This document shows, piece after piece, positions 44,261 through 63,834 of a stretch of DNA of 64,000 nucleotides. The first letter of the stretch is position 1. Every line of letters begins with the position of its first letter. The position numbers and the translations under genes were made by a program. The notes beneath the pieces were generated by a model. It saw only the letters and a program-made list of their open reading frames with translations. It did no database searches and was not told the DNA's origin. The stretch comes from Methanosarcina horonobensis HB-1 = JCM 15518 (GTDB taxonomy: Archaea; Halobacteriota; Methanosarcinia; Methanosarcinales; Methanosarcinaceae): contig NZ_CP009516.1 in NCBI RefSeq assembly GCF_000970285.1, forward strand, positions 971,036 to 1,035,035. The letters are read 5' to 3'.

Positions 44261-44335
44261 ATCTAACTCTAAATAGATTTTTGGCAAACTTTAATGTATA
44301 TTTATTTATCATATTATAATATATTATAACAGAAT

Positions 44336-44587
44336 ATGTCTACAATAGCTATAGACCCGGATGTAAAAGAATCGCTTAGAGAGTTAAAGTTAGCTCCAGA
44401 AGAGTCTTATAATTCGGTAGTTAAGAGACTTATTAGCGAAGTTAAAAAGAAAGAAGACTATAAGCCTATGTTTCCAAAAGAAGAAAAACAAGAACATAAG
44501 GAATCTCGTATAAAAGATTTTAATGCTTGGTTAGAAAAGAAGCTGGTAGAAGATAAAAATATTTTAGATGCACTTGGAAGAAAGTGA
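44336..44587 (+). CDS. Antitoxin of a Doc-like pair (copy 1)
   Basis: An 83-residue charged protein. The first 35 residues (STIAIDPDVKESLRELKLAPEESYNSVVKRLI) look like a ribbon-helix-helix DNA-binding domain; the rest is a flexible toxin-binding tail. It overlaps the toxin gene by 20 bases. The upstream ATATTATAATATATTATAA at about 44309-44328 holds repeated halves and is probably both promoter and operator. Identical protein at 47503. Confidence 0.8.
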   Translation: MSTIAIDPDVKESLRELKLAPEESYNSVVKRLISEVKKKEDYKPMFPKEEKQEHKESRIKDFNAWLEKKLVEDKNILDALGRK

Positions 44588-44975
44588 TGCTTTGATCAGT
44601 TTAATTGAAATTTTGAAAATTCATCAAAAGGTTATAGATTACGATAAATTTAAAGATCCAGATGATTATACCCCCGCAATACGTTCTTTAGCTACGTTGG
44701 AATTAATGTTTGAATATTTAATAAAAGAATCTAATACTATTTTCGAAAATGCAGCAATAATAGTCTATACTATTGTTGCAAAACATCCGTTTTTCAACGG
44801 AAACAAAAGAACTGGTTATGAAGCCATGAATTTTGTTATTGAAGATGCAGGATACAAGTTTACATCTACAGATAAAGAGATGATAGAATTCATAATTAGA
44901 GTAGCTACAACAGAAAATGAAATGTCAATTGAAGAAATAAAAGAATGGATAATTCGACATACGGAAAGAACATGA
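44568..44975 (+). CDS. Fic/Doc-family toxin (copy 1)
   Basis: A 135-residue Doc-type protein. HPFFNGNKRT at residues 73-82 is the Fic/Doc active-site motif: the histidine is the base and NKR binds phosphates. Doc phosphorylates elongation factor Tu, while related Fic proteins AMPylate targets. The gene overlaps its antitoxin, the normal layout of such modules. Identical protein at 47735. Confidence 0.88.
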   Translation: MHLEESDALISLIEILKIHQKVIDYDKFKDPDDYTPAIRSLATLELMFEYLIKESNTIFENAAIIVYTIVAKHPFFNGNKRTGYEAMNFVIEDAGYKFTSTDKEMIEFIIRVATTENEMSIEEIKEWIIRHTERT

Positions 44976-45015
44976 TAACATAGAATCAAAGAGATGTACA
45001 GAGCAACAATTAATT

Positions 45016-45051
45016 ATTCAACAGCATAATCCACTAAAACAGGATTGAAAT
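45016..45051 (+). CRISPR. Degenerate CRISPR repeat after TA copy 1
   Basis: 36 bases aligning to the repeat: ATTCAACAGCATAATCCACT then AAAACAGGATTGAAAT. One base is deleted and the last base changed. It lies 38 bases after the toxin stop. Confidence 0.8.
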
Positions 45052-45226
45052 AATATTTTAATGTCTACTCTTAGAGGAATGACAGCTGAACAAATCATAG
45101 ACATCTGAAATTTATGAAAACTCAGCTGAACATTTCAATAATGAAATTCTTGAAAAATAGCATCAGGAACAACAATTCAATAACAAATAAATATCATCGA
45201 ATTAATAATGACAGAGGTGATGTTTT

Positions 45227-45451
45227 GTGAGAACAAAAGAATTTCTTGTAATAATTGAAAAAAGTGAAAACGGTGGATATGTAGCTTTTGTTCCAGATTT
45301 GCCTGGATGTCATACACAAGGGGATACATTGGAAGATGTAAGAAAATATATTAAAGATGCAATTCAGCTTTATCTCGAAGTTGAATCAGATTATTTGAAT
45401 GAAGAACCTACAAAATTTGTGAGTGCAGAGATGATGCAGGTTGAAATATGA
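45227..45451 (+). CDS. hicB: HicB-family antitoxin
   Basis: A 74-residue protein with the partially degraded RNase H fold of HicB: GGYVAFVPDLPGCHTQGDT and EALANIKDAI-like EDVRKYIKDAIQLYLE. It neutralises HicA. GTG start with GAGGTGAT upstream. It overlaps hicA by 4 bases (ATGA). In many systems hicA precedes hicB; here the order is antitoxin first, also known. Confidence 0.9.
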   Translation: MRTKEFLVIIEKSENGGYVAFVPDLPGCHTQGDTLEDVRKYIKDAIQLYLEVESDYLNEEPTKFVSAEMMQVEI

Positions 45452-45687
45452 CAAAAATAAAACCACTTTCAAATAAAAAGGTAATTAAAGCACTTGAGAA
45501 AGTTGGTTTTCAACCTATTCGACAAACAGGTAGTCATTTATTTATGAAAAATCCAGATGGTAGAACTACCATTATACCAATTCATTCAAAAGAAATTAAA
45601 GTTGAAATTATTAACGCAATTTTAAAAGAAGCGAAAATTTCAAGAGAAGAATGGATTGAATTAGTTAAAAATTTAATACTTTTTTAG
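45448..45687 (+). CDS. hicA: HicA-family mRNA interferase toxin
   Basis: A 79-residue dsRBD-like toxin. KVIKALEKVGFQPIRQTGSHLFM and TTIIPIHSKEIKVEI are the HicA signature; the histidine of TGSH is catalytic. It cleaves mRNA independently of the ribosome. A degenerate CRISPR repeat begins only 5 bases after its stop codon. Confidence 0.92.
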   Translation: MTKIKPLSNKKVIKALEKVGFQPIRQTGSHLFMKNPDGRTTIIPIHSKEIKVEIINAILKEAKISREEWIELVKNLILF

Positions 45688-45691
45688 AGAA

Positions 45692-45728
45692 ATTCGCGAG
45701 CAAGATCCACTAAAACAAGAATCGAAAC
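45692..45728 (+). CRISPR. Degenerate CRISPR repeat after hicA
   Basis: Full 37-base length, starting ATTCGCGAGCAAGATCCACT and ending CAAGAATCGAAAC. Four or five substitutions from the main-array repeat. Confidence 0.9.
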
Positions 45729-45767
45729 GGACCTGCAGATCTAGGAAAGGAAAAGTGAAGGAAAAAT

Positions 45768-46118
45768 TTACTTCTTGTAACCAAATATTTTATCGTATTT
45801 TTTATGATCGATTATATCGATCACTATTACGAGAGTTTCAACACCCGGATTACCAGCTGTAAGTGTATAGAGCATTCTCCAGAATCTGGGAAGTTCCACT
45901 CTAAACAGGTTCTTTACCCCATATTTGTTTTTGTATTCTGAAGGAATTAATCTTTTAGCAATTGGATTTCCATAATGAACATCGTTTTTTATTAACTCTA
46001 TTTTCTGATGGAAAGCATTAAGGATAGTCTCTTCCTGCTTTGAGTCCGAAGCCTTACGTACCAGATATTCACATGCCTCATCAGCTTCAGGAGTTAATCT
46101 TACACTTACACGCTTCAT
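45768..46118 (-). CDS. RelE/ParE-like toxin
   Basis: A 116-residue protein with the shape of RelE-superfamily toxins: basic strands KNLFRVELPRFWRMLYTL and VIDIIDHKKYDKIFGYKK at the C-terminus, and a helical first half. RelE toxins cut mRNA at the ribosome; ParE toxins poison gyrase. Which applies is not clear. It lies 14 bases after the gene 46133-46411 on the same strand. Confidence 0.75.
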   Translation of the reverse strand: MKRVSVRLTPEADEACEYLVRKASDSKQEETILNAFHQKIELIKNDVHYGNPIAKRLIPSEYKNKYGVKNLFRVELPRFWRMLYTLTAGNPGVETLVIVIDIIDHKKYDKIFGYKK

Positions 46119-46132
46119 GATTTATTCACATT

Positions 46133-46411
46133 TTATAGCTCACGTCCGTAAATCGCAACGTTCCTTAAATTTTTATTTGTGTTGTGAATCCATGTTATTC
46201 CTCTTAACCCCACAACTATTTTATTACTTTTCTCTAGATATTCCAAAACAGTCATTAAAGTATTGTGGTTTACCTGCCGTGGAAGTGCTTTTTTGAGTTC
46301 CGGAATAGTTATAACACTATTTGGGCTATTTTGTATAGTATCTTCTACCATAATAATAGTATTAAGAGTTGGAGAAGGTTTTACCTTATCAGAATTTAAT
46401 GCCTCTGTCAT
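46133..46411 (-). CDS. Putative antitoxin/wHTH partner of the RelE-like toxin
   Basis: A 92-residue protein with a winged-helix-like region (ITIPELKKALPRQVNHNTLMTVLEYLEKSNKIV), directly upstream of the RelE-like gene. Size, order and spacing fit an antitoxin that also represses the operon. No family name recognised. Confidence 0.65.
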   Translation of the reverse strand: MTEALNSDKVKPSPTLNTIIMVEDTIQNSPNSVITIPELKKALPRQVNHNTLMTVLEYLEKSNKIVVGLRGITWIHNTNKNLRNVAIYGREL

Positions 46412-47157
46412 TTCTTCACTTCCATAGATTTGAAATGATCATGTAAGAAATAGTTATTAATTAGTAATTTACTTGCATCTATGTGTACTTATGGTTTACG
46501 GTGACATATGCAAAGGCACTGGATATCCTCTAAGAAAAACACTATCTGTTGAAGTATTCTTTCTGGTCCTGATGAAGGCGTGTGAGAACCTGCAGGTCCA
46601 GGAATAAATTAAAAGAGGAAGATTTAGCCGTCATTGCCCAGGCATCCACTTTACGCAGGTTAGTGCCATACCCTGCAACCGGACTCAGGTGTTTTCCGGA
46701 CCAGCTTCTCCAGCTCTGGCCTTGTATTTTGCGAGGGTCTCGAAATGACTGAGATGTGAGATAGCCGTTTGTGACTGGACACTTAGAACGTCTTAATATT
46801 AAATTTTAGTCTACGATCAGGATAAGACTTGAGCATTTGAACTAAAAAACGATAGCATTAAACCGTTAAATGCCTAAAATGTAAATTTTAAGCCTGATGT
46901 CTAATGTATTTGATTTTATACATCGAGCGAGTAAATCTGATGTAATAAATTTATGATCTGAGTTTGAAATTAACAATGTTCGCTATCCAAATGTAGAAAT
47001 GGTTTGAATTTTAAGACAGCCTCTTAAAGATTGAAACGTATGTCAGAACTTCTTTAATCTAATTGATGGGGTTGCAATTGACTCGAAAACTCATTAGAGA
47101 TTGAAACCGTTCCAGGTAGTCTTGGAAGAGTTCTACGCATTCCATTGCAACTGATTA
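46412..47157. other. Non-coding stretch with gene and IS remnants
   Basis: About 750 bases without an intact gene. Segment 46590-46780 has higher GC and looks like a decayed gene. TTTAAGACAGCCTCTTAA at about 47009-47026 matches the end of the IS5-type element at 61563-61580. Near 47071-47107 a sequence ending GAGATTGAAAC may be a very decayed CRISPR repeat. Confidence 0.45.
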
Positions 47158-47194
47158 GAAAACTCTCAAAATTTACTAAAACAAAGATTGAAAT
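47158..47194 (+). CRISPR. Strongly degenerate CRISPR repeat
   Basis: The right half (TTTACTAAAACAAAGATTGAAAT) clearly matches the repeat; the left half is nearly unrecognisable. Confidence 0.6.
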
Positions 47195-47234
47195 ATTGGT
47201 CTTCCTACACTGCTACATGAGCTCGAATTTTTCT

Positions 47235-47406
47235 ATTCGTGAGCAAGATCCATTAAAACAAGGATTGAAACAATCATTACTTTCATATTGAAAGCTATGC
47301 GTAAGAATTCGCGAGCAAGATCCACTAAAACAAGGATTGAAACATTATTCTGATGTAAATTTTGTAGATAGTTCATCAACATTCGCGAGTAAAATCCTTA
47401 AAACAA
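47235..47406 (+). CRISPR. Relic mini-array, two repeats plus a truncated third
   Basis: Repeats at 47235-47271 (one mismatch, ATTCGTGAGC) and 47307-47343 (ATTCGCGAGC with CCACT), then a truncated third at 47381-47406. Spacers are 35 and 37 bases, in the normal range. It ends about 50 bases before copy 2 of the Doc-like cassette. Confidence 0.92.
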
Positions 47407-47502
47407 TTTTTTCTGTTGATATCTTGCAGGCTCTGACAGAATCAATTTTGACAAAATTGAATGTGTACTTATTTATCATATTATAACATATTATAACAGA
47501 AT

Positions 47503-47754
47503 ATGTCTACAATAGCTATAGACCCGGATGTAAAAGAATCGCTTAGAGAGTTAAAGTTAGCTCCAGAAGAGTCTTATAATTCGGTAGTTAAGAGACTTAT
47601 TAGCGAAGTTAAAAAGAAAGAAGACTATAAGCCTATGTTTCCAAAAGAAGAAAAACAAGAACATAAGGAATCTCGTATAAAAGATTTTAATGCTTGGTTA
47701 GAAAAGAAGCTGGTAGAAGATAAAAATATTTTAGATGCACTTGGAAGAAAGTGA
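47503..47754 (+). CDS. Antitoxin of a Doc-like pair (copy 2)
   Basis: Protein identical to the one at 44336. The promoter here reads CATATTATAACATATTATAAC, a clean direct repeat of ATATTATAAC, slightly different from copy 1; this may mark the operator. Identical coding sequence implies recent duplication or gene conversion. Confidence 0.8.
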   Translation: MSTIAIDPDVKESLRELKLAPEESYNSVVKRLISEVKKKEDYKPMFPKEEKQEHKESRIKDFNAWLEKKLVEDKNILDALGRK

Positions 47755-48142
47755 TGCTTTGATCAGTTTAATTGAAATTTTGAAAATTCATCAAAAGGTT
47801 ATAGATTACGATAAATTTAAAGATCCAGATGATTATACCCCCGCAATACGTTCTTTAGCTACGTTGGAATTAATGTTTGAATATTTAATAAAAGAATCTA
47901 ATACTATTTTCGAAAATGCAGCAATAATAGTCTATACTATTGTTGCAAAACATCCGTTTTTCAACGGAAACAAAAGAACTGGTTATGAAGCCATGAATTT
48001 TGTTATTGAAGATGCAGGATACAAGTTTACATCTACAGATAAAGAGATGATAGAATTCATAATTAGAGTAGCTACAACAGAAAATGAAATGTCAATTGAA
48101 GAAATAAAAGAATGGATAATTCGACATACGGAAAGAACATGA
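47735..48142 (+). CDS. Fic/Doc-family toxin (copy 2)
   Basis: Identical to the toxin at 44568, with the same HPFFNGNKRT motif (residues 73-82) and the same 20-base overlap with its antitoxin. Each antitoxin copy should neutralise both toxins, so loss of one cassette is tolerated. Confidence 0.88.
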   Translation: MHLEESDALISLIEILKIHQKVIDYDKFKDPDDYTPAIRSLATLELMFEYLIKESNTIFENAAIIVYTIVAKHPFFNGNKRTGYEAMNFVIEDAGYKFTSTDKEMIEFIIRVATTENEMSIEEIKEWIIRHTERT

Positions 48143-48182
48143 TAACATAGAATCAAAGAGATGTACAGAGCAACAATTAATT

Positions 48183-48219
48183 ATTCAACATCATAATCCA
48201 CTAAAACAAGGATTGAAAC
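48183..48219 (+). CRISPR. Degenerate CRISPR repeat after TA copy 2
   Basis: 37 bases starting ATTCAACATCATAATCCACT and ending AACAAGGATTGAAAC. Followed by a spacer-length 36 bases and the next relic at 48256. Confidence 0.88.
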
Positions 48220-48255
48220 CTATATTATATTTTTTGTCTGCAACGTTTTCTATAT

Positions 48256-48291
48256 ATTCTAGAGCTAGATCTATAAAACAAGAGCTGAAAC
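48256..48291 (+). CRISPR. Degenerate CRISPR repeat before the chitosanase gene
   Basis: 36 bases starting ATTCTAGAGCTAGATCTATA and ending AAGAGCTGAAAC. It lies 45 bases upstream of the chitosanase start. Confidence 0.8.
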
Positions 48292-48336
48292 CAAAAATTG
48301 TACAGTTGGATCAAAATACAGGAAAGGAGAATCTAC

Positions 48337-49089
48337 TTGAAAATATGGATGGTTTTGATATTCCTCCTTCTGATGGCAGTACCTTGTGCCGCCTCAGACA
48401 AGGAAGCAGCCTTGCAGATGACAACCGCACTTGAGAACAGTGTTATTGAAATGCAGTTCAATTATGCGGAAAACCTGGGAGATGGTCGTGGAATTACGTT
48501 CGGCTGCGTTGGGTTTTGTACAGGGACATATGATGGGAACATTCTGATTAAGCACTATACAGAACTGAATCCGAACAATGACCTGGCAAGGTTCATTCCT
48601 GCCTTAGATGCTATTGATAGTAGTTCTCATACTGCTACTGCTGCTGATAGAGATGGCAATCCAAGTGTGGAAGGACTGGATGGTTTCATTGAGGCTGTGA
48701 AAGGATGTGACGACCCGCTGTTCGAGCAGGCTCAGCTGGACATGCTGGACAAATTGTATTGGGATCCAGCAATGAAACTGGCTGAGGGAGCAGGTTGTAA
48801 GAATGCTTTGACGAAGGCATTCATCTATGATATGTATGTGAGGCATGGTCCTAATGGTGCCCAGAGCATCATGAAGGAAGCCGGTTCTGTTGGGGACGAT
48901 GAAAACGCCTACTTGGAAAGGCTGTTCCAGTACAGGGATTCTGCACTCAAGAATGAAGGCCTGGGTGATGTGGACAGGGATAATGGATACAAACAGGTAT
49001 TAGAAGCGGGCAATATCGACCTGGCCACACCATTCACGTTTGAAGCACATGGAGACATGTTCAACATTTCTGGTGATCTTGGGATTTGA
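48337..49089 (+). CDS. Secreted GH46 chitosanase
   Basis: About 250 residues from TTG 48337, chosen because GGAAAGGAGAA lies 6 bases upstream and it gives a clean signal peptide (MKIWMVLIFLLLMAVPCAAS). The mature part is GH46: E33 in TALENS and D49 in LGDGRG are the likely catalytic pair, followed by GFCTGTYDGN and the family end AGNIDLATPF. GH46 enzymes hydrolyse chitosan with inversion. Such an enzyme is unexpected in a methanogen and more common in bacteria, so transfer is likely. Relic CRISPR repeats bound it on both sides. Confidence 0.9.
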   Translation: MKIWMVLIFLLLMAVPCAASDKEAALQMTTALENSVIEMQFNYAENLGDGRGITFGCVGFCTGTYDGNILIKHYTELNPNNDLARFIPALDAIDSSSHTATAADRDGNPSVEGLDGFIEAVKGCDDPLFEQAQLDMLDKLYWDPAMKLAEGAGCKNALTKAFIYDMYVRHGPNGAQSIMKEAGSVGDDENAYLERLFQYRDSALKNEGLGDVDRDNGYKQVLEAGNIDLATPFTFEAHGDMFNISGDLGI

Positions 49090-49190
49090 TTCGAGAGCAA
49101 GATCCACTAAAACAAGGATTGAAACCATAAGTATTAAGACTGTGCATTATCCTGAGTTATTCGAGAGCAAGGTCCACTAAAGCAAGGATT
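49089..49190 (+). CRISPR. Relic repeat-spacer-repeat after the chitosanase gene
   Basis: First repeat 49089-49125 differs from the main repeat only at CCACT; its first base is the last base of the chitosanase stop codon. A 33-base spacer follows, then a second repeat from 49159 truncated near 49190 and carrying GGTCC and AGCAAGG changes. Confidence 0.93.
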
Positions 49191-49341
49191 ATACTCGGAT
49201 CATACCTGCTCCTGGCATACAAACATATCAACACCAATAAACACTGCAAGCAATATTACTAACGAGTTGCTGCTATACCCCAGATGCTGTAAAAGAAAAT
49301 TAAGCAAAATCTCATTAATCATATCTGTAATAAGAGATAAT

Positions 49342-49842
49342 ATGGACAGTCTGAAGAGTGGAGATATTACTGTACGCACGCAAAAGTCTGGTGATGCCGC
49401 ATATATAGCTTATAGACATTGCGTTCTTTACGAAAAAGAATACGGACTTTGCGGAACTTTTGAGCAGTACGTGCTGGACAGCCTGGTTAAATATATTGAG
49501 CACAGGTCCGAAGGGGAAATCTGGGTAGCAGAGTATAATGGTCAGATTGTTGGCTTTATAGGAGTTGTCAGTACAGACAAAAATACAGCGCAGCTCAGAT
49601 GGTTTTTAATAGAGCCAGAATTTCGCGGAACAGGCTTGGGCAGACAGTTGATGACCATAGCAGTCGACTACTGCAAACAAAAAAAGTTCAGTCGAGTATT
49701 TTTGTGGACAATGCAGGGTTTGGAGGTTGCATACCATTTGTATAGTAGTTTTGGATTTATTCCTGTAGAACAGGTCGAAAATAATACATGGAAAAGAGGT
49801 GTGGTAGAAGAGCGCTGGGAACTTTTATTGGAATCTGTGTAA
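49342..49842 (+). CDS. GNAT-family N-acetyltransferase
   Basis: 166 residues from ATG 49342. RWFLIEPEFRGTGLGRQLM at about residues 92-110 carries the acetyl-CoA binding R-x-x-G-x-G/A loop, and the helix after it plus VAYHLYSSFGFIPVEQ complete the fold. Substrate unknown. The frame extends upstream to 49267 but that part is poor. It lies between two relic CRISPR clusters, so it is another cargo gene. Confidence 0.87.
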   Translation: MDSLKSGDITVRTQKSGDAAYIAYRHCVLYEKEYGLCGTFEQYVLDSLVKYIEHRSEGEIWVAEYNGQIVGFIGVVSTDKNTAQLRWFLIEPEFRGTGLGRQLMTIAVDYCKQKKFSRVFLWTMQGLEVAYHLYSSFGFIPVEQVENNTWKRGVVEERWELLLESV

Positions 49843-50001
49843 AACCGGGCAGTCGCTTAACTCGTTATATGTTTCTAATACTTTTTACGTTAAATAAAAC
49901 AGAATATCGAAGGACAAATATCGAGTTTAAAAATCAATTGGAATGATAACGTTTTTTCATATTTATCGTTTTTGTCATTTTTGTGCATATAATATTTAGA
50001 A

Positions 50002-50181
50002 CATCGTGAGCAAGATCTATTAATACAAGGATTGAAACTGCTTGTGCATCCAGCCGGCTATCAAGCAGCTGGCTTATTCGAGAGCAAAATCCACTAAAAC
50101 AAGGATTGAAACCACAATTGGACTCGACTATGAACTTATTGAGGTAAAATTCGAGAGCAAGATCCACTAAAACAAAGATTA
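50002..50181 (+). CRISPR. Relic mini-array of three degenerate repeats
   Basis: Repeats at 50002-50038 (starts CATCGTGAGC), 50076-50112 (near perfect, CAAAATCCACT) and 50149-50181 (truncated at AAAGATTA). The spacers are 37 and 36 bases. It closes the cargo block carrying the GNAT gene. Confidence 0.92.
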
Positions 50182-50564
50182 AGGCCTTTTCGATTTTTGC
50201 CAGCATTCATACTGTTTGCTTCTTTTCATATTGACGTTTCAGGCTCTCAAGTGCATATCTTCAGCATACACCGAAGCCAGGAGTTAAAGCCAAAAATATG
50301 ATAGTGGGGTCAATCTTGCGTTCGCATTTTATAATATCAGTCCTCCTAGCAGTTTCCCTTGAACATTCTTTGGGAAATATTTTTGAAGAGGATTTTAGAG
50401 AGTAATTTTAGAGTAGAGGTTTTTCAGAGCAGATTAGAATGAGCATATATGATTACATATAGTTTTATGGAATGATTATTATAAAACTATATGTAAAAAA
50501 CTGAATTATCCCTTAACCGATGACCAATGAATGAGGTCTTGGTTAAAGAAAGGACTGATTTGCC
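50182..50564. promoter_or_regulatory. Region upstream of the ZIP gene with a 16-bp inverted repeat
   Basis: 383 bases without a gene. A perfect inverted repeat of 16-base arms, TTACATATAGTTTTAT at 50453-50468 and its complement at 50481-50496, has a 12-base centre. It ends about 68 bases before the ZIP transporter start and is a candidate operator or transposon end. Confidence 0.7.
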
Positions 50565-51329
50565 TTGCTGGATGTATTGGAGGCAGGATTCTGGGGCCTC
50601 ATTGCGGGTCTGGGTTTGTTTTTGGGTGCTCTGGTCGGCTATTTTGTGGAACTTCGCCACCACGTGATTGCCACGATCATGGGGTTTGGTGGAGGCGTTC
50701 TGATTTCGATTTTGTCTTTCGATCTCATGGAAGAAGCGTATGAGCTGACAGGATTTGAAATGACCGCCGCTGGGTTTTTAGCAGGCGGCTTAGTTTTTAG
50801 CACAGCGAACTGGCTGCTTGCAAGGCATGGGGCACAAAACCGCAAGCGCTGTGGACAATGTGTGCAGCAGCCGAGTGAGGAACAACATCCGGGAAGTGGG
50901 ATATCGCTGTTTTTAGGCGCTCTGGTGGATGGTATTCCAGAGTCGCTGGTAATTGGATTAAGCTTGATTGGAGGCGGTATGATCCCATCCGCTACGCTGG
51001 CAGGTTTTTTCCTGGCAAACGTTCCCCAGGGGCTTTCCAGCGCTTCGGGCATGAAAGATGCTAGGCGATCCGCTCGCTACGTGCTCGGCGCGTGGGGAGG
51101 ATTGACACTCGCCTCTGGCGTTGCAGCACTTTTAGGATACAGCATCTTCGGAGGACTTTCGACAAGCATGATCGCGTTGATGTCTGCATTTGCTGCCGGA
51201 GGGCTGTTAGCGATGCTGACGGAGACGATGATCCCCGAGGCATTCGACCAGGCGTCCGCCTTCATCGGGCTAATTACTGTAACGGGTTTTCTGGCAGCGT
51301 TTGTCATATTGAAGATAAGTCTTCACTAA
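50565..51329 (+). CDS. ZIP-family metal ion transporter
   Basis: A 254-residue membrane protein with about eight helices. GALVDGIPESLVIGLSLI near residue 138 is the ZIP helix IV motif, where D, E and nearby residues line the metal path (zinc, iron or manganese). The charged His/Cys-containing loop at residues 85-110 (HGAQNRKRCGQCVQQ) may sense or store metal. TTG start with AAAGGA upstream. Composition and neighbours look bacterial (Firmicutes-like). Confidence 0.85.
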   Translation: MLDVLEAGFWGLIAGLGLFLGALVGYFVELRHHVIATIMGFGGGVLISILSFDLMEEAYELTGFEMTAAGFLAGGLVFSTANWLLARHGAQNRKRCGQCVQQPSEEQHPGSGISLFLGALVDGIPESLVIGLSLIGGGMIPSATLAGFFLANVPQGLSSASGMKDARRSARYVLGAWGGLTLASGVAALLGYSIFGGLSTSMIALMSAFAAGGLLAMLTETMIPEAFDQASAFIGLITVTGFLAAFVILKISLH

Positions 51330-51378
51330 ACTTGCAGCTCTTCAGCAGCGGTGCCCGGCCTGATAATTCGGCCTGATA

Positions 51379-51466
51379 ATTGACAGGGATGTCAATATAT
51401 GCCACATTTATATATGTTGACAGGAGTGTCAGTATACGCTATATTTATACTGACAGGACGGTCAGT
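51379..51466. promoter_or_regulatory. Three tandem palindromic operators for the TetR regulator
   Basis: ATTGACAGGGATGTCAAT at 51379-51396, TTGACAGGAGTGTCAG at 51417-51432 and ACTGACAGGACGGTCAGT at 51449-51466 share the core TGACAGG-x-TGTCA. Archaeal TATA-like boxes (TTTATATAT near 51408 and TATATTTATA near 51440) lie between them. Binding of the adjacent TetR protein would block its own promoter. Confidence 0.75.
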
Positions 51467-51475
51467 AAAACGGAG

Positions 51476-52096
51476 ATGATGCAGTTGCCTTTACAGCTTT
51501 ACGATAAAGAGCAAATTTTGGATTCCTGTTTGGCAGTGTTTGCCCGGTATGGGTATGAAAAGACATCAACAGCGATGCTGGCTGAGGCAGCTGGTATTTC
51601 CAGAGCACTGATCTTTCACCATTTCAAGAGCAAAAAAGAGCTTTATCTAAGTTTACTGGACCGATGCTTTGCCAGAGGAAGGATTGAAATGGGCTTTGAC
51701 AACCTGTTGGAATATAAGGACTTTTTTGCGGCTAAAAAAGAGTTCAGTATAATTAAATTCAATTATTATAAAAAAAATCCTGATTTGTACAAATTTGTGC
51801 GAGAAGCCTTTTTTGCAACACCGTATGAATTGAAGATGGAGATTGAAGAAAAGTACGGAGAGTTGATCACCAACAGGGACAAAGAGTGGGAGCTGCTGTT
51901 TGCCAAAGTTCCCCTCCGGGAAGGCGTGGATCGCGGGCAGTCATTCAAGCTGGTCATGCTCGTACTGGATTATTTCGACAACAAATATATATCGGAATTA
52001 GCGGACGATAGCGATTTGGATGAGACGTATCTCCAAAGCTTTCTGGCTGAGAGAGACAGTTTTCTGGCTCTGGTTCGGCATGGAATCGAAAGGTAA
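51476..52096 (+). CDS. TetR/AcrR-family transcriptional regulator
   Basis: 206 residues from ATG 51476. The N-terminal helix-turn-helix ILDSCLAVFARYGYEKTSTAMLAEAAGISRALIFHHF is typical TetR; the C-terminal domain (residues 60-206) should bind an inducer. An upstream extension to 51380 would run through the three palindromes and is unlikely. It precedes the rifampicin-phosphotransferase-like gene by 18 bases, so they are probably one operon. Confidence 0.9.
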   Translation: MMQLPLQLYDKEQILDSCLAVFARYGYEKTSTAMLAEAAGISRALIFHHFKSKKELYLSLLDRCFARGRIEMGFDNLLEYKDFFAAKKEFSIIKFNYYKKNPDLYKFVREAFFATPYELKMEIEEKYGELITNRDKEWELLFAKVPLREGVDRGQSFKLVMLVLDYFDNKYISELADDSDLDETYLQSFLAERDSFLALVRHGIER

Positions 52097-52114
52097 AGGA
52101 GAGGGGTTGTAAGA

Positions 52115-54469: not shown

Positions 54470-54545
54470 AAAGTCAATTTTTACATTTTAAAATGAGTCG
54501 GTACGTCAAATTTTTTGGATATTTTCGGGCATATTCGAAAGCGTT

Positions 54546-55524: not shown

Positions 55525-55699
55525 CGGGAAGAATCGGTAGGCACGCATCGGCAGAAGCATTGGCAAGGAGGCCGAGTGGACTGGCTGGAAAGGCGTATGG
55601 GAAAGTACTGCCTGCTGCCCAATAACGAAGTTGAAAAATGCCGAACTGGAGTTCGCAGATATCCTTCAATGAAAAAACTACCCCGAAGTAAGTTGTAAC

Positions 55700-55925: not shown

Positions 55926-56177
55926 TAACGAAAGAATGGCTGAGTTTTTGGGCCGGGGGTTAAGATAATGTCAGCCAGATGTCAACTCGCTGAATAAAAA
56001 TTAGATAGGGAATTTGTTAATAATCTCATTATACTCATGCTGCGCTTCTGTGATTACAGGCTTTGAGTATACTTCTAAGACTTCCTGCTTTTATGACCAA
56101 TGTATAGTTATATTAACGCATCATTTTTATGATGTTGAATCTAACTTGAACTTCGCGACAGAGATGCTTCTACTAGG

Positions 56178-56213
56178 ATTCGAGAGCAAAATCACTAAAA
56201 CAGGGATTGAAAC
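56178..56213 (+). CRISPR. Single degenerate CRISPR repeat
   Basis: 36 bases starting ATTCGAGAGCAAAATCACTA and ending CAGGGATTGAAAC, with one deletion and three substitutions. Confidence 0.9.
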
Positions 56214-56768: not shown

Positions 56769-56805
56769 ATTTACGAGTAAGGTCCACTAAAACAAGGATT
56801 GAAAC
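56769..56805 (+). CRISPR. Single degenerate CRISPR repeat
   Basis: Starts ATTTACGAGTAAGGTCCACT and ends AAGGATTGAAAC. The right 20 bases match the main repeat well. Confidence 0.85.
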
Positions 56806-56941
56806 ACTGTAACATAAAGTTGTTAAAGCGCCAAAAATGAAAACTCTTTACAAAATCGGAATTGGTCTTATGTGGTTTTCTACATCAAAAATTGTTGGTA
56901 CTACACTTAGTGTGTAGTATCCGGAAATTCTTAAAAGGCAG

Positions 56942-57898
56942 TTACATCGAAGTAGCTGGCACATAAGCGGTGAAAGGAACTGCTTGAGACTCAGAATTTA
57001 CGGCTTCTCCTTCAAAGACATATACTGGTAAAGCGGAATCCTGTTCTTCGCCTGCAGGCTCCATCCAATAGGCAAGATAAATATTCTTGATGCTTACCTT
57101 ATCGATTGTATCCAGGTTTGCCGTTAAGAACATGGCTTTGCCATTTTGCAGTTCAGTATAGGCAGTCTCAGCTGTTTTAATATTCGCTTTTTCCTTAGAT
57201 ATCTCTACATCTTTCCACGCCTTGAACAAACCAACGACTTCACCCTTCTCTCCGATATATACCTTTATTTTGTTACCAGGACCAACAATGGGTATGCCAT
57301 TAATCTCTCTTGCAGATGCAACTACCTGAAGCACCACATCGTACTCTTCCAGGACTTTTCCTGTACTTTTCTCAGACTCTAACTGCTTATCAGCAACAAC
57401 TTTATCCAGTTTAGCATCAGACGGAAGAAGATTCATTTTTGCAAGGAAGCTCTCTGCAATTTTTATTGCCTCTGCATCCGATGGTAAATCCGGCTGTGAT
57501 GAAACTACGGGGCTCATTTTTTCAGGTACGGAATAAAATATTGCTCCTGATTTCTCATAGACCATCAAATGTTCAGTTCCATCTTCACTCAGCATACCTA
57601 TTTTCCCGGTCCCGGCAGGACCGGCTTCTCCGGTAAAACCAAAACGTTGTCCTATTTCTTCGACATATTCAGATGATACCGTGGGTGCTTTCGTCTCTAA
57701 AATAGGAAATGTACTTTCTAACTCTGGAAAAGAAGTTTCCAGCGTAAATCCCACTGATGAATCAATGCCTGCCTCGTTTGTCGGGAGAACGGTGCCTGCC
57801 TGAGTATGTAACGCCATGCTAATTCCGAATATTGTAAGTATGGATACTATCCCCGCCAAAACCAATATTTTATTTTTCAATTTGCTCCCTCCTTTCAA
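56942..57898 (-). CDS. Secreted partner protein of the DUF6345 protein
   Basis: A 318-residue protein with signal peptide (ILVLAGIVSILTIFGISMA) and a large extracytoplasmic part. Several segments (AEAIKIAESFLAKMNLLP, KIKVYIGEKGEVVGLFKAWKDVE) resemble PepSY/propeptide-like repeats that chaperone or inhibit proteases. It overlaps the DUF6345 gene by 4 bases (ATGA), so the two are translated together. A role as inhibitor or folding partner is inference. Confidence 0.65.
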   Translation of the reverse strand: MKGGSKLKNKILVLAGIVSILTIFGISMALHTQAGTVLPTNEAGIDSSVGFTLETSFPELESTFPILETKAPTVSSEYVEEIGQRFGFTGEAGPAGTGKIGMLSEDGTEHLMVYEKSGAIFYSVPEKMSPVVSSQPDLPSDAEAIKIAESFLAKMNLLPSDAKLDKVVADKQLESEKSTGKVLEEYDVVLQVVASAREINGIPIVGPGNKIKVYIGEKGEVVGLFKAWKDVEISKEKANIKTAETAYTELQNGKAMFLTANLDTIDKVSIKNIYLAYWMEPAGEEQDSALPVYVFEGEAVNSESQAVPFTAYVPATSM

Positions 57899-58653
57899 CA
57901 GTTATAAGTCCATGTAGTGAATTGATCATCCACAGCAGGATCGGAAATTACCGTACCCTGGCCCCATATTTTGTCATTGCCACAAGTTGATGTTTCACCA
58001 AATACTTTTAGAGTAACGCCTGCAGGCTGATTGATATCTATCCCATAGAACCAGGCATTCTTTACCGTATATGCATCATCGTTTGCACCATCATCAATTA
58101 GATAACCAGCCCAGTTCTCTCCGTCACCAGCATAATTATATGCCGTGGTGGAAAAACCACATATCAAATGAGCACCTTGTAAGGACTCTGAAAAATCGTT
58201 GTTGCTTAGAGTATTACATGCATGTAGACCGATCCATTCTAAATCGTAGTCTCCCCATTCAGCTTCATTAGCATAAACTTTCTCTGTGTATGCAGATACA
58301 TCAAGTTTTCCAGCAGAACCATGTCCCTGGTAGAACGCAATGTCTACACCATCAATATAAGTAGTATCCGAACCACTCTGTTCGAAATGAGCAGCTTTTG
58401 CGTTGCTATCTCCTTTGTTGAACTTCTTTGTCCACCCAGCGTTCCCGATACGATTATAAAAACCCACAGCAGAATCATCACTATTAGGTAAGTCCGCATA
58501 CGGGTAGGTATAATCGCATACCCATTCAATCCCAACTTCCGGACTTGATGAATCGCTATCATCGCCCGTACCAGCGCTTGCTGGCAATGTTAGTGCTGCA
58601 AGGATACATAAGACCAACATGGTTGTTCTAATTCCATATCTACTTCCGTTCAT
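57895..58653 (-). CDS. Secreted DUF6345 protein with caspase-like His/Cys pair
   Basis: A 252-residue exported protein (signal peptide through residue 27). The DUF6345-like body has GNAGWTKKFNKGDSNAKA, then DIAFYQGHGSAG (H111) and EWIGLHACNTLS (C146). A hydrophobic strand followed by H-G and another followed by A-C is the clan CD cysteine peptidase pattern (caspases, gingipains). Whether it cleaves protein is unproven. Coupled to the downstream partner gene; the membrane-anchored regulator 138 bases upstream may control both. Confidence 0.75.
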   Translation of the reverse strand: MNGSRYGIRTTMLVLCILAALTLPASAGTGDDSDSSSPEVGIEWVCDYTYPYADLPNSDDSAVGFYNRIGNAGWTKKFNKGDSNAKAAHFEQSGSDTTYIDGVDIAFYQGHGSAGKLDVSAYTEKVYANEAEWGDYDLEWIGLHACNTLSNNDFSESLQGAHLICGFSTTAYNYAGDGENWAGYLIDDGANDDAYTVKNAWFYGIDINQPAGVTLKVFGETSTCGNDKIWGQGTVISDPAVDDQFTTWTYNC

Positions 58654-58790
58654 GCACTATCTCCATTATTTTTTTCACAAAACAATTAATTTGTATTGTA
58701 TTATGGAGTAGATATGAAAAATTAATAAAAGGTCGTAATATGTTCGGAAAAAACCGAATTTCAGAAACTGCCTGCTGCCTTCTCACATTA

Positions 58791-59294
58791 CTAAAAAAAA
58801 TGTTTTTTCTCTATCCCTACACCCCATTGCCTTAAACTAGAATAGAAAAGTATGACGCTTATTACAATAAAAAGCAGGCCTGCTAAAAGATAAAGTGTTA
58901 TATCATAGGCACTTTCCGCTGGAGGATATGTACTTTGTCCCAAATAATCTGTCATGAATTTGGCGATGTATGTAAAGCCACATGCAACTGACACGACAGA
59001 GAAAGATAAAAGAACCAGTATCTTATTCTTTTCCTGTGGACGCAAGAGAATTATGCCTTTTTCTGTTATTTCATAGTATATCCATTTGTGGGTTCCCTCT
59101 TTTTTCCTTACCAAGCCAGCATCGAGTAACTTTTCTAAATGTTCATGAACTGTCGATTTTGCCAGATTTTCAGTTTTCGAGAGTTCTGTGATCGTCATAC
59201 ATCTTGCATCAAGTTTTCTTAAAATCGAAATCCTTGATATTGACGATAACGCGATAAACGACTTCAAGTCCAATATAACGTTCTCAGACGTCAA
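58791..59294 (-). CDS. Membrane-anchored winged-helix regulator
   Basis: 167 residues. An ArsR/MarR-like winged helix (TITELSKTENLAKSTVHEHLEKLLDAGLVRKKEG) at residues about 32-68 and wing KWIYYEITEKG, then two membrane helices (VLLSFSVVSVACGFTYIA and LYLLAGLLFIVISVILFY). Such proteins can read an envelope signal directly. It is first in a minus-strand block with the DUF6345 pair. TTG start at 59294. Confidence 0.82.
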   Translation of the reverse strand: MTSENVILDLKSFIALSSISRISILRKLDARCMTITELSKTENLAKSTVHEHLEKLLDAGLVRKKEGTHKWIYYEITEKGIILLRPQEKNKILVLLSFSVVSVACGFTYIAKFMTDYLGQSTYPPAESAYDITLYLLAGLLFIVISVILFYSSLRQWGVGIEKKHFF

Positions 59295-59708
59295 AAACTA
59301 CGCACCTTTAATTAAGTTCATATTGCGACTATTTCTACTATTTATTACAAATACTTCTACTATTAACTTATCGAGTACAAATAATTGTATTTCGGTATGC
59401 TTTTTGGTTGGCAAGCAAATTTAAATCGTGTGTAGAATTCTACAAGAATTTGCATTAATGATTATATTCTTTCCTCATATTGACGACTCTCACGGTGTAT
59501 AGCCTGTATGGATAGAGTTTGTATCAGTTTTAACACTTTATTCATAACTCGATTTAAAAAATCAACTATTAGAATCTGTTAGTATTATCTAACTAATAGA
59601 GAATGTTAATCAAAATAATTTTAGAACTTATTATAAGTGACTTTCATTAAGGAAAAGAAATCCGGGAATTCTTTTTTGAGTAATATTCTAATTTCATATT
59701 CACTATTG
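59295..59708. other. AT-rich region upstream of the winged-helix regulator
   Basis: About 410 bases with no gene seen. The regulator's promoter should lie at 59300-59420. The rest is AT-rich up to the relic repeat at 59709. Confidence 0.4.
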
Positions 59709-59745
59709 ATTCGAGAGCAAGCTCCATTAAAATAAGAGTTAAAAC
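59709..59745 (+). CRISPR. Single degenerate CRISPR repeat
   Basis: Starts ATTCGAGAGCAAGCTCCATT and ends AAGAGTTAAAAC. It lies 62 bases from the end of the CapA-like gene. Confidence 0.88.
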
Positions 59746-59806
59746 TTAATTTAAACAAAATTTTTTGAAATTCAAGCTAAAAATTGCATATTTTAGTTAC
59801 TAAAAA

Positions 59807-60931
59807 TCAATTTATTATAAGTTCGATGGAATTATCGCTAAGTAGTTTAAATTCCGTATCAAATGCCTTCCCTTCCCTGTTTAAAACATGTTTTATCCAT
59901 TTTGCGTAATTACGGCCTGCGTAGTTTAATTTAAAATTTTTTATCTGCATGGGTATAATCTTTAATTTGCTGATCTTTCCCATGTCAGTGTCAAAGTCGA
60001 CAAAATACATTAGGGCAAGGTCGTCTCTGTATATTTCGTAGCCTGTTATCCCTTCATAATCATTTATAAAATCGCCGCATCCGTACAATATTAATCTATT
60101 TTTATAGACCTCAATGCCTATTGGATGATGCGATGAATGGCCATGCACTATGTTTACCCCTGCCAGATCGATAAGGTTATGTGCAAATTCCATATGAGCC
60201 TTGGATATTCTGTAGCCCCAATTGCTGCCCCAGTGGATTGATACTATCGAAATATCATTCTTGCCTCTTATTGCGTCGAATTTTTCTTTTATGTTCCTGA
60301 CCGTATTTATTGAATAATCGGGAATAAGATTTACCCCGGCTCTGTTACTTTCAGCGCTCCATTCATTCGGAATGCCGCTTGTAATTGAGCCACAGGAATA
60401 TATTAAAACTCTTCCCTTCCTTTTTAAATCAAACACGGCAACTTTTTCAGCTAAAGACTTATCAATTCCTGCGCCTGCAAATTTTATTTTTGCATCGCTG
60501 AGTGTTTTAATGGTTTCATCAAGCCCCTTATATCCCCAGTCCAGGACATGATTATTGGCAAGAGAAGTAAAGTCAATCCCAGCATCTTTTATTACGTTAA
60601 TATTTTGAGGATTTAACTTGTAATGAATTCCTTTATGTTTCCAGTAATCCCTGCTTGATGTTACGCTTGTTTCAAGATTTATGATCTTTAAATCCGGTTT
60701 TTTATTGTCAAACTCCTTTAATGCGTCTCCCCAGACGTATGAATAATCCACGGGTTTATCAATCTCGCCGTTTTTATCTTCCGCAATATCCACATATCCT
60801 TTTGCAGACTTCATGTACGGCTCATAAATCCTCGGATCGCCCGGATGAGGCAGAATCTGGTCAATCCCCCTTCCAAGCATAACGTCGCCGCATAGGAAAA
60901 TTGAAATTATTTTTTCTATGGTCATATTCAT
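59807..60931 (-). CDS. CapA-family (PgsA-like) metallophosphoesterase-fold protein
   Basis: A 374-residue protein of the CapA family linked in bacteria to poly-gamma-glutamate capsule. Motifs: CGDVMLGRG near residue 15, NLETSVTSS near residue 84, ANNHVLDWGYKGL near residue 125, SIHWGSNWGY near residue 233 and VHGHSSHHP near residue 258, giving the metal-binding Asp, Asn and His set. No signal peptide is obvious. Flanked by relic CRISPR repeats on both sides. Confidence 0.88.
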   Translation of the reverse strand: MNMTIEKIISIFLCGDVMLGRGIDQILPHPGDPRIYEPYMKSAKGYVDIAEDKNGEIDKPVDYSYVWGDALKEFDNKKPDLKIINLETSVTSSRDYWKHKGIHYKLNPQNINVIKDAGIDFTSLANNHVLDWGYKGLDETIKTLSDAKIKFAGAGIDKSLAEKVAVFDLKRKGRVLIYSCGSITSGIPNEWSAESNRAGVNLIPDYSINTVRNIKEKFDAIRGKNDISIVSIHWGSNWGYRISKAHMEFAHNLIDLAGVNIVHGHSSHHPIGIEVYKNRLILYGCGDFINDYEGITGYEIYRDDLALMYFVDFDTDMGKISKLKIIPMQIKNFKLNYAGRNYAKWIKHVLNREGKAFDTEFKLLSDNSIELIIN

Positions 60932-61112
60932 ATTTAATTCGAGATATCATTTAAAATATATTACCATATTATTATAAATTTGTTAGAGTTTGGCAAATAT
61001 GGACCGCCCATAAATCCTATTGTATTTTTTTCAATAAGATGCCTATAATAATTTTCAGTACTGCAATTACTAAAATATTTCACAAAAATTTGACATTTGA
61101 ATCTATCCAATG

Positions 61113-61193
61113 ATTACGAATTTTCCACTAAACAAGGATTGAAACAATAGAAATACCGACATCCACTTTATGAAATCTTTATTCGCAAGCAAG
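61113..61193 (+). CRISPR. Degenerate repeat, spacer and half repeat cut by an IS fragment
   Basis: Repeat 61113-61145 (ends CCACTAAACAAGGATTGAAAC), a 35-base spacer, and the first 13 bases of the next repeat (ATTCGCAAGCAAG) at 61181-61193. Transposase-coding sequence starts directly after. Confidence 0.8.
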
Positions 61194-61580: not shown

Positions 61581-61691
61581 TTAATTCCACTTTAACAAAA
61601 AACAATAATAGTTCTTTTTTCATCTTTGTAATATCGGCTTGCCTTCCTGCCACAGCAGACAATGTACCAACAAGCTGTCATCGCAGGAAAT

Positions 61692-61797
61692 AACTCAAAG
61701 ATCCACTAAAAGAGGGATTGAATTGTGAGATTATGGGAGTTGTGAATGATCCAGAAATAAAATTCAATAGCAAGATCTATTAAATAATAATCGAAAC
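61692..61797 (+). CRISPR. Two degenerate CRISPR repeats with one spacer
   Basis: 61692-61723 (AGATCCACTAAAAGAGGGATT core) and 61762-61797 (starts ATTCAATAGCAAGATCTATT, ends TAATCGAAAC), separated by 38 bases. Confidence 0.75.
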
Positions 61798-61836
61798 TAA
61801 AAAACCATGTCACTTCTCATTGCAACCTCGAACTCG

Positions 61837-61888
61837 ACATCAACTTTCAGACACTAAAGTGTACATCAACTCCCGGACACTAAAGTGT
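61837..61888. repeat. Tandem 26-base repeat at the 3' end of the RNB gene
   Basis: Two units, ACATCAACTTTCAGACACTAAAGTGT-like, at 61837-61862 and 61863-61888 differ at about four bases. The second includes the last codons and stop of the RNB gene. Such tandem ends are seen at some insertion-sequence termini. Confidence 0.7.
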
Positions 61889-63686
61889 ATATCATCGCTC
61901 TAGCTGCTAACCTTTTGGCCCTTTGCTTTTTTCCTGCTTGGCCGGTGCTGGTCGAGGAGCCAAAGGTGCAGGTACAGGTGAAGGTCGGCTTGTTGGTCGA
62001 GCCTTCCGTCTCAAACGAATAAGCCGGCAAGGGAAGTTTCTTTGCCTGACAATATTCCTGCAGGGCAAAAATTGGGTCTTTTGACGTGTTAATTGTCATT
62101 TCTCCCTTACTGGCCGGCAGGTCTGCTACCTTGGTCTTCAAGTCAGGAGTGGGTAAGCCCAGAATAGTTGCGAGCAGGTCTACGGATGCCCGCTGCATTG
62201 CGCCTTTCTTTGTCAGGTCCTCATATGCAGCGGACTGGTACTCTCTGTCACCGACTCTAATGGCGCTCAGGGCGGTGAATACCGGTATGTTGCCTCGGGC
62301 AGTTTCGGTCACTTCATATATGGGCATCTGCCAACCTGGTATATGTTGTGCGATATCGAAGATTGAGACTGCGTGATGAGGCGCAGTTGCTAACTCTTCC
62401 AGCACTGCTCTTTTAAGCTCAGTCCATCTTTCGCCATCAGGGGCCTGCAGGAGTACCAGCCCTGTGCAGATGATCGGCAACTTGCCAAGGCGTTTCTGGA
62501 AAACATCGCGGTAAGCCTCGGGGCAGTCTCCCCCTTTGCGGATCAGAAATTTGGTGATGCGCTCGAAATCTGTATCGCTTGCATTCTCAATCCTGTTCCT
62601 CAGGATGGCAAACTCAGCTTCTTTATACGCCTTTTCTTTCATGTACTCGCTTTTAGCCTTGTCGTTTTCAAGGTGCTTCAGGTTAATGTGCGATGCAATT
62701 GCCTGAATCTCTTCTTTAGAATGGGGCAAGGGCTCGTTCCGGATGTATGCCCTGATCTGCTGGTGGTTAACGAGATCAGCATACCTTCGGATGGGCGAGG
62801 TGAAATGGGTATACGCTCCGAGGTTCAGTCCGAAATGGCCCAGGATGACGGGGCCATATTCCGCTCTATTGAGCATCATGTACGCGGTATGCCTGACTGT
62901 AGCTATGTTTACCTCAGGGATGACAGCTATGCTTTCGAGCAGCTTCAGCAAGTCCTCCCGCTCAGGGGTGGCGCTCCGGGCTGTATGGTTACGGAAAAGG
63001 ATAGGAATGTCATTTTTGACCGCATACTCTGCTACGGCCATGTTAGCGAGAATCATCAGCTCTTGGATGATAACGTAGCCGATAGTATCTTCCCTGCGTT
63101 TCAGTTGCCGTAGCGATCCTTCTTCACTCGTCACCAGCCCCTTCCCCAAATCGTAGAATGCCAGCGCTCCGTGGTTACGGCGCTGCATCAAAAGACCGTT
63201 CGCTAACTGGCTTGCGAGCTTGATGAGAGCGTGCTGCGTGTGCTCCTTATCAGAGAGAATGCCGGGGACGTCAGAGAAAGCTATCTTTGCTTCGCTGGTC
63301 ATCGCAGTCCGCGAAATCTTTATTTCACGGATTGACAGATCCATGCCGAGGATGATATCCACAACGAGGACATACTTCGACTCTCCCGGCCATAGGGAAA
63401 ACTTCCCGTCTGCGAGCCGCCGGGGCAGCATCGGGCTGTTACCGTTTGCATAATACCTGGTCTCTACCCGGGATATCGCAAGTTGATCAAGCTCTGAATG
63501 CTTGTGAATTACTTTTGCGACGTCCGTGATCATGACCACGACGTGCCAGCCGCCGTTTTCCATGGTTTCCACCCAGATTGCATCATCCATGTCCCGGGTT
63601 GTCACGTCATCGATCGTAATGCCTCTGAGCATATCTGGCATAGTATCACTTAGGTGCAAAATTTGGTTTGCTTTCCTTATATGCAT
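61866..63686 (-). CDS. RNB-domain exoribonuclease (RNase II/R-like) with C-terminal dsRBD
   Basis: A 606-residue protein. TIDDVTTRDMDDAIWVE near residues 24-40 holds the catalytic aspartates (D26, D32, D34, D35) of RNB 3'-5' exoribonucleases; FTSPIRRYADLVNHQQ and the helices after it complete the RNB domain to about residue 370. Residues about 535-600 form a double-stranded RNA-binding domain (LQEYCQAKKLPLPAY and RAKRLAARAMI). The N-terminal cold-shock and C-terminal S1 domains of RNase R are absent. RNB enzymes are rare in methanogens, so this is probably acquired. The last residues lie in a tandem repeat. Confidence 0.88.
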   Translation of the reverse strand: MHIRKANQILHLSDTMPDMLRGITIDDVTTRDMDDAIWVETMENGGWHVVVMITDVAKVIHKHSELDQLAISRVETRYYANGNSPMLPRRLADGKFSLWPGESKYVLVVDIILGMDLSIREIKISRTAMTSEAKIAFSDVPGILSDKEHTQHALIKLASQLANGLLMQRRNHGALAFYDLGKGLVTSEEGSLRQLKRREDTIGYVIIQELMILANMAVAEYAVKNDIPILFRNHTARSATPEREDLLKLLESIAVIPEVNIATVRHTAYMMLNRAEYGPVILGHFGLNLGAYTHFTSPIRRYADLVNHQQIRAYIRNEPLPHSKEEIQAIASHINLKHLENDKAKSEYMKEKAYKEAEFAILRNRIENASDTDFERITKFLIRKGGDCPEAYRDVFQKRLGKLPIICTGLVLLQAPDGERWTELKRAVLEELATAPHHAVSIFDIAQHIPGWQMPIYEVTETARGNIPVFTALSAIRVGDREYQSAAYEDLTKKGAMQRASVDLLATILGLPTPDLKTKVADLPASKGEMTINTSKDPIFALQEYCQAKKLPLPAYSFETEGSTNKPTFTCTCTFGSSTSTGQAGKKQRAKRLAARAMIYTLVSGS

Positions 63687-63797
63687 GTTGGTCAGTAGAA
63701 AAGTGGTAAGAGATGCTCATTTTTAGAAGCAGTTGTCTCTGCCGTGCTGTCTTGGTGGAAAAAAGAAACTTTGTGCCATCGCGGAAAAATCATTCCA

Positions 63798-63834
63798 GAT
63801 TCGCAGGCAAGATCCGTTAAAATAAGGATTGAAA
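63798..63834 (+). CRISPR. Degenerate CRISPR repeat near the right edge
   Basis: Starts ATTCGCAGGCAAGATCCGTT and ends AATAAGGATTGAAAC. It shows that the relic zone extends at least to here. Confidence 0.88.

Follow-up and report, generated by a model that had tools for sequence, protein, structure and literature searches.

Relic repeats downstream of an intact CRISPR array

The window analysed here, a 64-kb stretch of the Methanosarcina horonobensis HB-1 genome to which all coordinates refer unless stated otherwise, contains an intact array of clustered regularly interspaced short palindromic repeats (CRISPR), headed by a conserved leader and by cas genes, and, to the right of this array, a trail of decayed copies of its 37-nucleotide (nt) repeat with whole genes lying between them. 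The features of the locus, including open reading frames (ORFs) and a miniature inverted-repeat transposable element (MITE)-like sequence, are as follows.

35377-37818, plus strand: cas3, HD nuclease and helicase (NCBIfam TIGR01587/TIGR01596)
38467-39438, plus strand: cas1 (TIGR00287, E 7e-106)
39540-39830, plus strand: cas2 (TIGR01573)
39847-40554, plus strand: cas4, adjoining the leader (TIGR00372)
40555-40667, plus strand: array leader, conserved in the genus (genome search with 40500-40704)
40668-44260, plus strand: intact CRISPR array, 50 repeats of 37 nt
44279-45015, plus strand: cassette, antitoxin and Fic/Doc toxin, copy 1 (Pfam; repeat-bounded in G019, G008 and relatives)
45016-45052, plus strand: relic repeat, score 49
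45053-45691, plus strand: cassette, HicB and HicA, ending in a stop codon 4 nt short of the following relic (Pfam, sequence)
45692-45728, plus strand: relic repeat, score 62
45729-47156, minus strand: cassette, RelE/ParE-like protein and partner, with a MITE-like element at 46790-47030 (weak fold matches)
47157-47417, plus strand: four relic repeats (two partial), spacers of 35-41 nt
47446-48182, plus strand: cassette, antitoxin and Fic/Doc toxin, copy 2 (99% identity to copy 1)
48183-48291, plus strand: two relic repeats, 36-nt spacer
48292-49088, plus strand: cassette, GH46 chitosanase, stop codon overlapping the next relic by one base (Pfam, sequence)
49089-49195, plus strand: two relic repeats, 33-nt spacer
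49196-50001, plus strand: cassette, GNAT acetyltransferase (Pfam)
50002-50185, plus strand: three relic repeats, spacers of 37 and 36 nt
50186-56177, plus strand: long block between relics, with a 254-residue ORF, TetR, PPDK_N and PEP-utilizer ORFs and a SnoaL-like gene (Pfam)
56178-56213, plus strand: relic repeat, score 59
56769-56805, plus strand: relic repeat, score 54
56806-59708, minus strand: block between relics, with a 318-residue protein, a DUF6345 protein and a helix-turn-helix protein (Pfam)
59709-59745, plus strand: relic repeat, score 54
59746-61109, minus strand: cassette, PGA_cap (CapA-like) protein (Pfam)
61124-61145, plus strand: partial relic repeat, score 39
61688-61797, plus strand: two relic repeats, 37-nt spacer
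61798-63798, minus strand: cassette, RNB-dsrm exoribonuclease-like gene (relics on both sides in 8 of the 11 genomes holding the gene)
63799-63835, plus strand: relic repeat, the zone continuing beyond the window

An earlier, sequence-only reading of the window had proposed that decayed 37-base repeats lie to the right of the array, and a gapped scan (score cut-off of at least 30) bears this out, with 20 relics up to position 63835, all on the plus strand and scoring 35-74, against best scores of 22-31 in ten simple two-base block shuffles of the region. The minus strand of the window contains no relic reaching 30, and an ungapped scan (up to 14 mismatches) again gives matches on the plus strand only. 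The bulk of the relics stand far above the shuffle noise; the weakest four (35, 38, 39 and 39) are individually just modestly over chance, those below about 38 being close to the shuffle maximum. The zone had been taken to end at 63834, but the relics run about 9 kb further beyond the window, with one weak match 20 kb out.

Four of the repeat-spacer-repeat units claimed earlier are present, at 47235 (a spacer of 35 nt, then one of 37), 49089 (33), 50002 (37 and 36) and 61762 (37, between relics at 61688 and 61762), and a further one is found at 48183 (36), whereas at 61113 there is just a partial, 22-nt repeat with the next relic 542 bp away, so that this unit is unconfirmed. The short gaps between neighbouring relics are spacer-sized in 29 of 30 cases (32-42 nt). 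The trail thus shows the marks of a CRISPR remnant: a leader match with cas3, cas1, cas2 and cas4 at the head of the array, repeat matches beyond chance in the direction of the array, and the spacing of repeat-spacer units.

The relics are also not randomly placed relative to the genes, since of the 20 only one meets any of the 21 listed genes, with a 6-nt overlap where a transposase-fragment ORF ends, compared with a mean of 14.3 contacts and a minimum of 6 in 20,000 trials of random placement in this stretch, 69% of which these genes cover.

In the genome as a whole, the 58 forward matches to the repeat (up to 3 mismatches in 30) all lie within the array at 40668-44260 or the trail, and the reverse matches listed (42 of 45) all fall in a second array near 2.40 Mb, in which 45 repeats were counted. 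Solitary repeats dispersed throughout this genome are consequently rejected, the listed matches at up to 3 mismatches being confined to the two arrays and the trail. The second array is followed (contig 1, about 2392700-2394100) by 20 weak matches at regular intervals, which probably represent an array with another repeat. Within the cas genes, a 222-residue ORF (37811-38479) lies in the gap between cas3 and cas1 and has no NCBIfam match.

A shared, ordered island in Methanosarcina

Thirty genomes of the genus Methanosarcina, designated here by G numbers with G000 for the genome of the window, were searched, and stretches around leaders and cassettes taken from them were compared; several of these genomes are fragmentary, the blocks were picked by hand, and some loci served for repeat scans only. 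Trails downstream of an array and on its strand, with hardly any matches upstream, are present in G012, G022, G029, G019, G003 and G004. In these six and G000, which make up the seven anchored arrays, 72 matches are found downstream (20-40 kb each) versus 2 upstream (20 kb each), and none of the trail matches is on the minus strand. The zones of G008, G005, G010, G024 and G027 have no array in the compared stretch. A cas3-family gene nevertheless stands just before the zone in G010, G005 and G024 (tested in G024), accompanied in G010 and G005 by cas8b1, cas7 and cas5 family genes (cas8b1 and cas5 tested in G010, cas7 in G005), so that these three zones resemble this locus with its array and adaptation genes lost. 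The zones of G009, G001 and G007 contain relic-poor stretches.

In a masked comparison, shared blocks are found in one order, from the leader side (cas4) to an amino-acid permease gene (family F4) that is present in ten zones. The permease gene follows conserved relics in G000, G019, G010, G022, G009 and G007, and a fossil spacer beside it (L089 13900-14100 and equivalents; 87-97% alike) is common, as a spacer, to G000, G019, G010 and G009 and, as sequence, to G007 and G008 as well. Over 17 zones, 384 of 393 pairwise comparisons, which are not independent of each other, give the same gene order between leader and permease; 45 of the 49 family pairs found in at least two zones are never reversed, and all nine disagreements involve G001, G027 or G023. 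For this count the Doc pair was taken as one, families in fewer than three zones were left out, and F10, F18 and F24 were dropped as they were judged to be chance ORFs from arrays. The presence of the families varies, with cupin F1 in 13 zones, RNB in 11, Doc in 8, UbiA-like F11 in 7 and nitroreductase-like F19 in 4. For the distal genes, the order reflects in large part vertical inheritance rather than ongoing shuffling. The island does not have the form of a single insertion bounded by attachment repeats, as a mobile element or genomic island would, but consists of many separate repeat-bounded pieces with differing presence patterns.

Across the family, 54 of 111 genomes, belonging to 9 of 14 genera, contain matches to the repeat (up to 3 mismatches in 28). 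Among nine stretches from five genomes of two other genera (g5 and g10), picked for dispersed- or array-looking matches, those of the g5 genomes G037, G038 and G035 contain dispersed same-strand relics, and in G037 relatives of cupin F1 and then of acyltransferase F8 follow each other among the relics in the same order. Arrays are seen in the g10 genomes G060 and G064 and in one stretch of G037, and two stretches are without a match.

Repeat-bounded pieces differ between species

The presence of repeat-bounded genes, which the sequence-only reading had proposed to compare between relatives, does vary from species to species, for example in what separates the array from the RNB gene. The latter adjoins the array in G012 and G003, lies behind Doc in G019 and behind Doc and a further 2.3 kb in G004, and is separated from the array by about 17 kb of genes in G000; the RNB-relic junctions match among all five genomes. 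Similarly, the relic to the left of a methyltransferase gene (F12) is recognisable by shared odd bases as the same one in G003, G005 and G029, and to its left the spacer and the gene differ per species, the gene being RNB, Doc and another methyltransferase, respectively. The Doc genes of G005 and G029 (97-98% identity) are found on different sides of a shared run that contains two fossil spacers.

Some ends of smaller pieces also lie at repeats. Repeats directly adjoin both ends of a 607/609-bp unit in G011, where the left repeat is much decayed, and at another array in G019; a cassette X common to G008 and G011 shares the first ~27 bases after the left repeat and a right end at a repeat, with ~190 extra bases in G008; a 402-bp piece is left-flush in G011 and G002, the right repeat being absent in G002; and a piece Y of ~190 bp has its right end at a repeat in three contexts with a differing left side.

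An old array as the probable origin of the gene island

These observations are probably, if by no means certainly, explained by a type I CRISPR array of great age that has turned, in the part far from the leader, into an ordered gene island, and in which recombination between repeats removes or relocates pieces. The array would once have reached the permease gene beyond the window, because conserved relics and the fossil spacer are still beside that gene in several species. Single genes and small gene sets came, by one route or another, to lie between the repeats, and the addition of spacers at the leader end would then have pushed older repeats and genes outward, repeats that are out of service decaying. 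The species differ by cassettes, with breaks at repeats in several traced cases, as expected if recombination between direct repeats, most likely by the general recombination proteins of the host, deletes or moves repeat-bounded pieces. More speculatively, the trail may be kept from being lost by the toxin-antitoxin genes that adjoin the living array, if these make such deletions costly.

If this is true, immune memory can become a lasting, ordered store of ordinary genes in which the CRISPR repeat marks the boundaries. The layers of the island suggest a relative time line, in that genes and fossil spacers close to the leader are species-specific and those at a distance from it are widely shared. 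The locus would also be a natural experiment on the loss or displacement of DNA beside repeats, and on the question of whether long DNA is ever taken up by adaptation proteins.

The decay of the repeats is consistent with outward ageing, in that relics further from the array score lower (for 85 relics pooled from eight zones, rho is -0.47 and p 6e-6) and seven of the eight zones show a negative trend. A number of observations weigh against the proposed explanation, however. Just three of the eight zones reach p <0.05 alone, and in G029 (rho +0.08) decay does not rise with distance. The breakpoints described above were judged by inspection by hand. Relics flank the Doc genes on both sides in 9 of 12 hits and are lacking in the other three, which include one degraded copy and another close to the end of its contig; for RNB they are present on both sides in 8 of 11 hits, on one side in two (one at a contig end) and on neither in one, in G009. 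The RelE-type genes are without relics nearby in 12 of 15 hits and have them in three, and the RelE pair is in the opposite orientation in G007. The left ends of Doc are 18-448 nt from a repeat, and the ends of RelE 29-647 nt. In the larger stretches scanned around the RelE relatives of G004, G027, G024, G010 and G005 no repeat was found, those of G001 and G019 have one weak repeat match each, and a HicBA relative in G029 (2.14 Mb) has no repeat in the surrounding 20 kb. Of the two outcomes that the sequence-only reading had named as damaging to it, random placement of the relics is not seen, and cargo genes without relics do occur, both as RNB in G009 and in some intervals between shared genes that contain no detectable relic. 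With cassette ends away from repeats and relatives lacking relics, several entry routes for the cassettes are likely.

The trail itself belongs mainly to one ancestral locus. A scan of 33 arrays included ten that lie at this locus or close to it, and relics or inserts are found downstream of these ten. Of the 23 arrays elsewhere, 16 have at most one downstream match, so that the trail may be peculiar to a single old locus; the remaining seven have more, but several of these are split or have a repeat of another type. A trail as a property of all arrays of this repeat is ruled out by these 16 arrays. Also rejected, as the cause of the breaks, are spacers aimed at the cassettes: when 1981 spacers were compared with the loci, the 15 matches outside arrays that passed the filter showed no pattern, 11 of them being fossil spacers of relic runs (10 beside the permease gene) and four others.

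Alternative explanations

An unlikely alternative is a passive graveyard, in which the dispensable tail of an array is a harmless site for ordinary insertions by transposable elements or end joining, with the repeats as bystanders and the gene order a product of vertical descent. The conserved order fits such descent, MITE-like pieces lie within arrays and trail, the RelE-type genes occur at varying distances and in either orientation, and some relics are truncated at the edges of inserts. Against bystander repeats speak the breaks at one shared relic with three different neighbours (that beside F12), the flush, two-sided 607/609-bp unit at arrays of two species, and the finding that islands which are otherwise colinear have the same Doc in intervals that do not correspond.

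It is improbable that the array itself captures genes as giant spacers, the Cas1-Cas2-Cas4 proteins sometimes integrating gene-sized DNA. The genes for these proteins stand beside the leader in the window, and the array on contig 91 of G011 (L028 1500-8600) contains seven flush inserts of 179, 311, 482, 483, 264, 1195 and 1278 bp in the exact position of a spacer, with full or nearly full repeats on either side. The 311- and 264-bp inserts have different neighbouring spacers but share a 95% similarity that begins immediately behind the repeat, and some of the inserts contain complete small ORFs behind ribosome-binding-like stretches. These inserts are the part of the data most open to a role of Cas1-Cas2; exchange between repeats would, however, leave the same flush ends, and the inserts may conceal the remains of a normal spacer. 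Spacer length is moreover strict, 1756 of the 1781 gaps between full repeats in the compared arrays and zones measuring 31-49 nt and only 25 being longer, and searches with the 311-, 482- and 483-bp inserts found no source for them: the 482-bp insert has no match in the other 29 genomes, and the 1568-bp stretch containing all three has none in phage records. A viral origin is likewise rejected, in that the 70-residue ORF of the 311-bp insert and the Doc protein have no relatives in viral contigs when searched with six short peptide patterns each. The wider proposal that adaptation proteins capture gene-sized DNA between repeats, making the array a platform for gene capture and ordering whose trail is guarded by the toxin-antitoxin cassettes, appears to us equally improbable.

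Mobile elements with a solitary CRISPR repeat that recombine with the array, leaving their genes between two repeats, are a very improbable source: the integration of viral genomes via such units is envisaged in a passage of a review (PMC8616872) and one crossover with a circular element would leave the insert between two repeats, but the tested inserts and the Doc protein match no virus or phage record and inserts of 179-500 bp would require later trimming.

Comparison with known systems

Integron cassette arrays consist of small genes that are set off by repeats and vary as units between relatives, and the sequence-only reading had likened the locus to an old array acting in an integron-like way. 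The likeness is one of outcome: gene-sized, repeat-delimited pieces do vary by species, whereas an integron-like mechanism is conjectural. The repeat is that of a CRISPR array and is at most a candidate recombination site, gene entry at the leader end would be conjecture, several cassette ends lie away from repeats even though repeat-bounded genes vary between relatives, and the intervals in which Doc, RelE and the 607-bp unit are found differ. No dedicated recombinase, integrase or attC site turned up in a scan of selected proteins of the locus, which was neither exhaustive nor aimed at these.

At the trailer ends of CRISPR arrays, leader-far repeat-spacer units decay, and the trail resembles such an end in the decay of leader-far units, the common strand and the spacing. 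It differs in spanning tens of kb, with whole genes between the relics and an order that is largely conserved across species. CRISPR loci may also be interrupted by insertion sequences, so that foreign DNA lies inside the locus, as it does here; the cargo of the present island, however, consists for the most part of toxin-antitoxin pairs and ordinary genes rather than transposons, and several of its families recur in ten or more zones. Insertion into cas genes is described in PMC10359306. The viral solitary repeat units, as outlined in part of PMC8616872, would offer a route into arrays by repeat-to-repeat recombination, but no virus of this kind was found among the viral and phage records matched to the tested inserts and Doc. 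Within the portions of the open-licence literature covered, a scope that leaves out most subscription papers, there is no prior account of genes between CRISPR relics as an ordered island, which is weak evidence of novelty.

Cargo genes

The genes of the zone are largely those listed by the sequence-only reading, with Doc (twice), HicBA, chitosanase, GNAT, CapA and RNB (plus dsrm) supported by Pfam, as is a transposase fragment, whereas the RelE-like pair has no Pfam match and only one member of a proposed DUF6345 pair is a DUF6345 protein, its 318-residue neighbour being without a Pfam match. The partner of Doc in the window is VapB-type or DUF7557 antitoxin-like (Pfam), the second Doc copy being assigned through its 99% identity to the first, and the homology between the two copies extends to the end of a degenerate repeat.

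The first protein of the pair at 45729-47156 is, with modest confidence, RelE/ParE-like. The best nine fold matches of its predicted structure (predicted local distance difference test 65, predicted template modelling score 0.53) in the PDB are toxin-antitoxin complexes, all with E >0.05, among them ParDE, YoeB-YefM, PfiAT and PrpAT, the toxins of which belong to the RelE/ParE superfamily; by sequence, the family gives no more than chance-level matches to solved structures. The MITE-like element within this cassette (46790-47030, ~240 bp) has dozens of copies genus-wide, roughly 68-88% alike.

The chitosanase stretch (48292-49088) has more matches in its own genome, four near 4.42 Mb and one at 1.75 Mb. 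In the long block, the PPDK_N and PEP-utilizer domains are encoded by two adjacent ORFs (52115-54469), perhaps one broken gene of the phosphotransferase type, and the SnoaL-like gene is flanked by a 34-nt direct repeat (54850-54883 and 55935-55968) whose copies are 94% alike.

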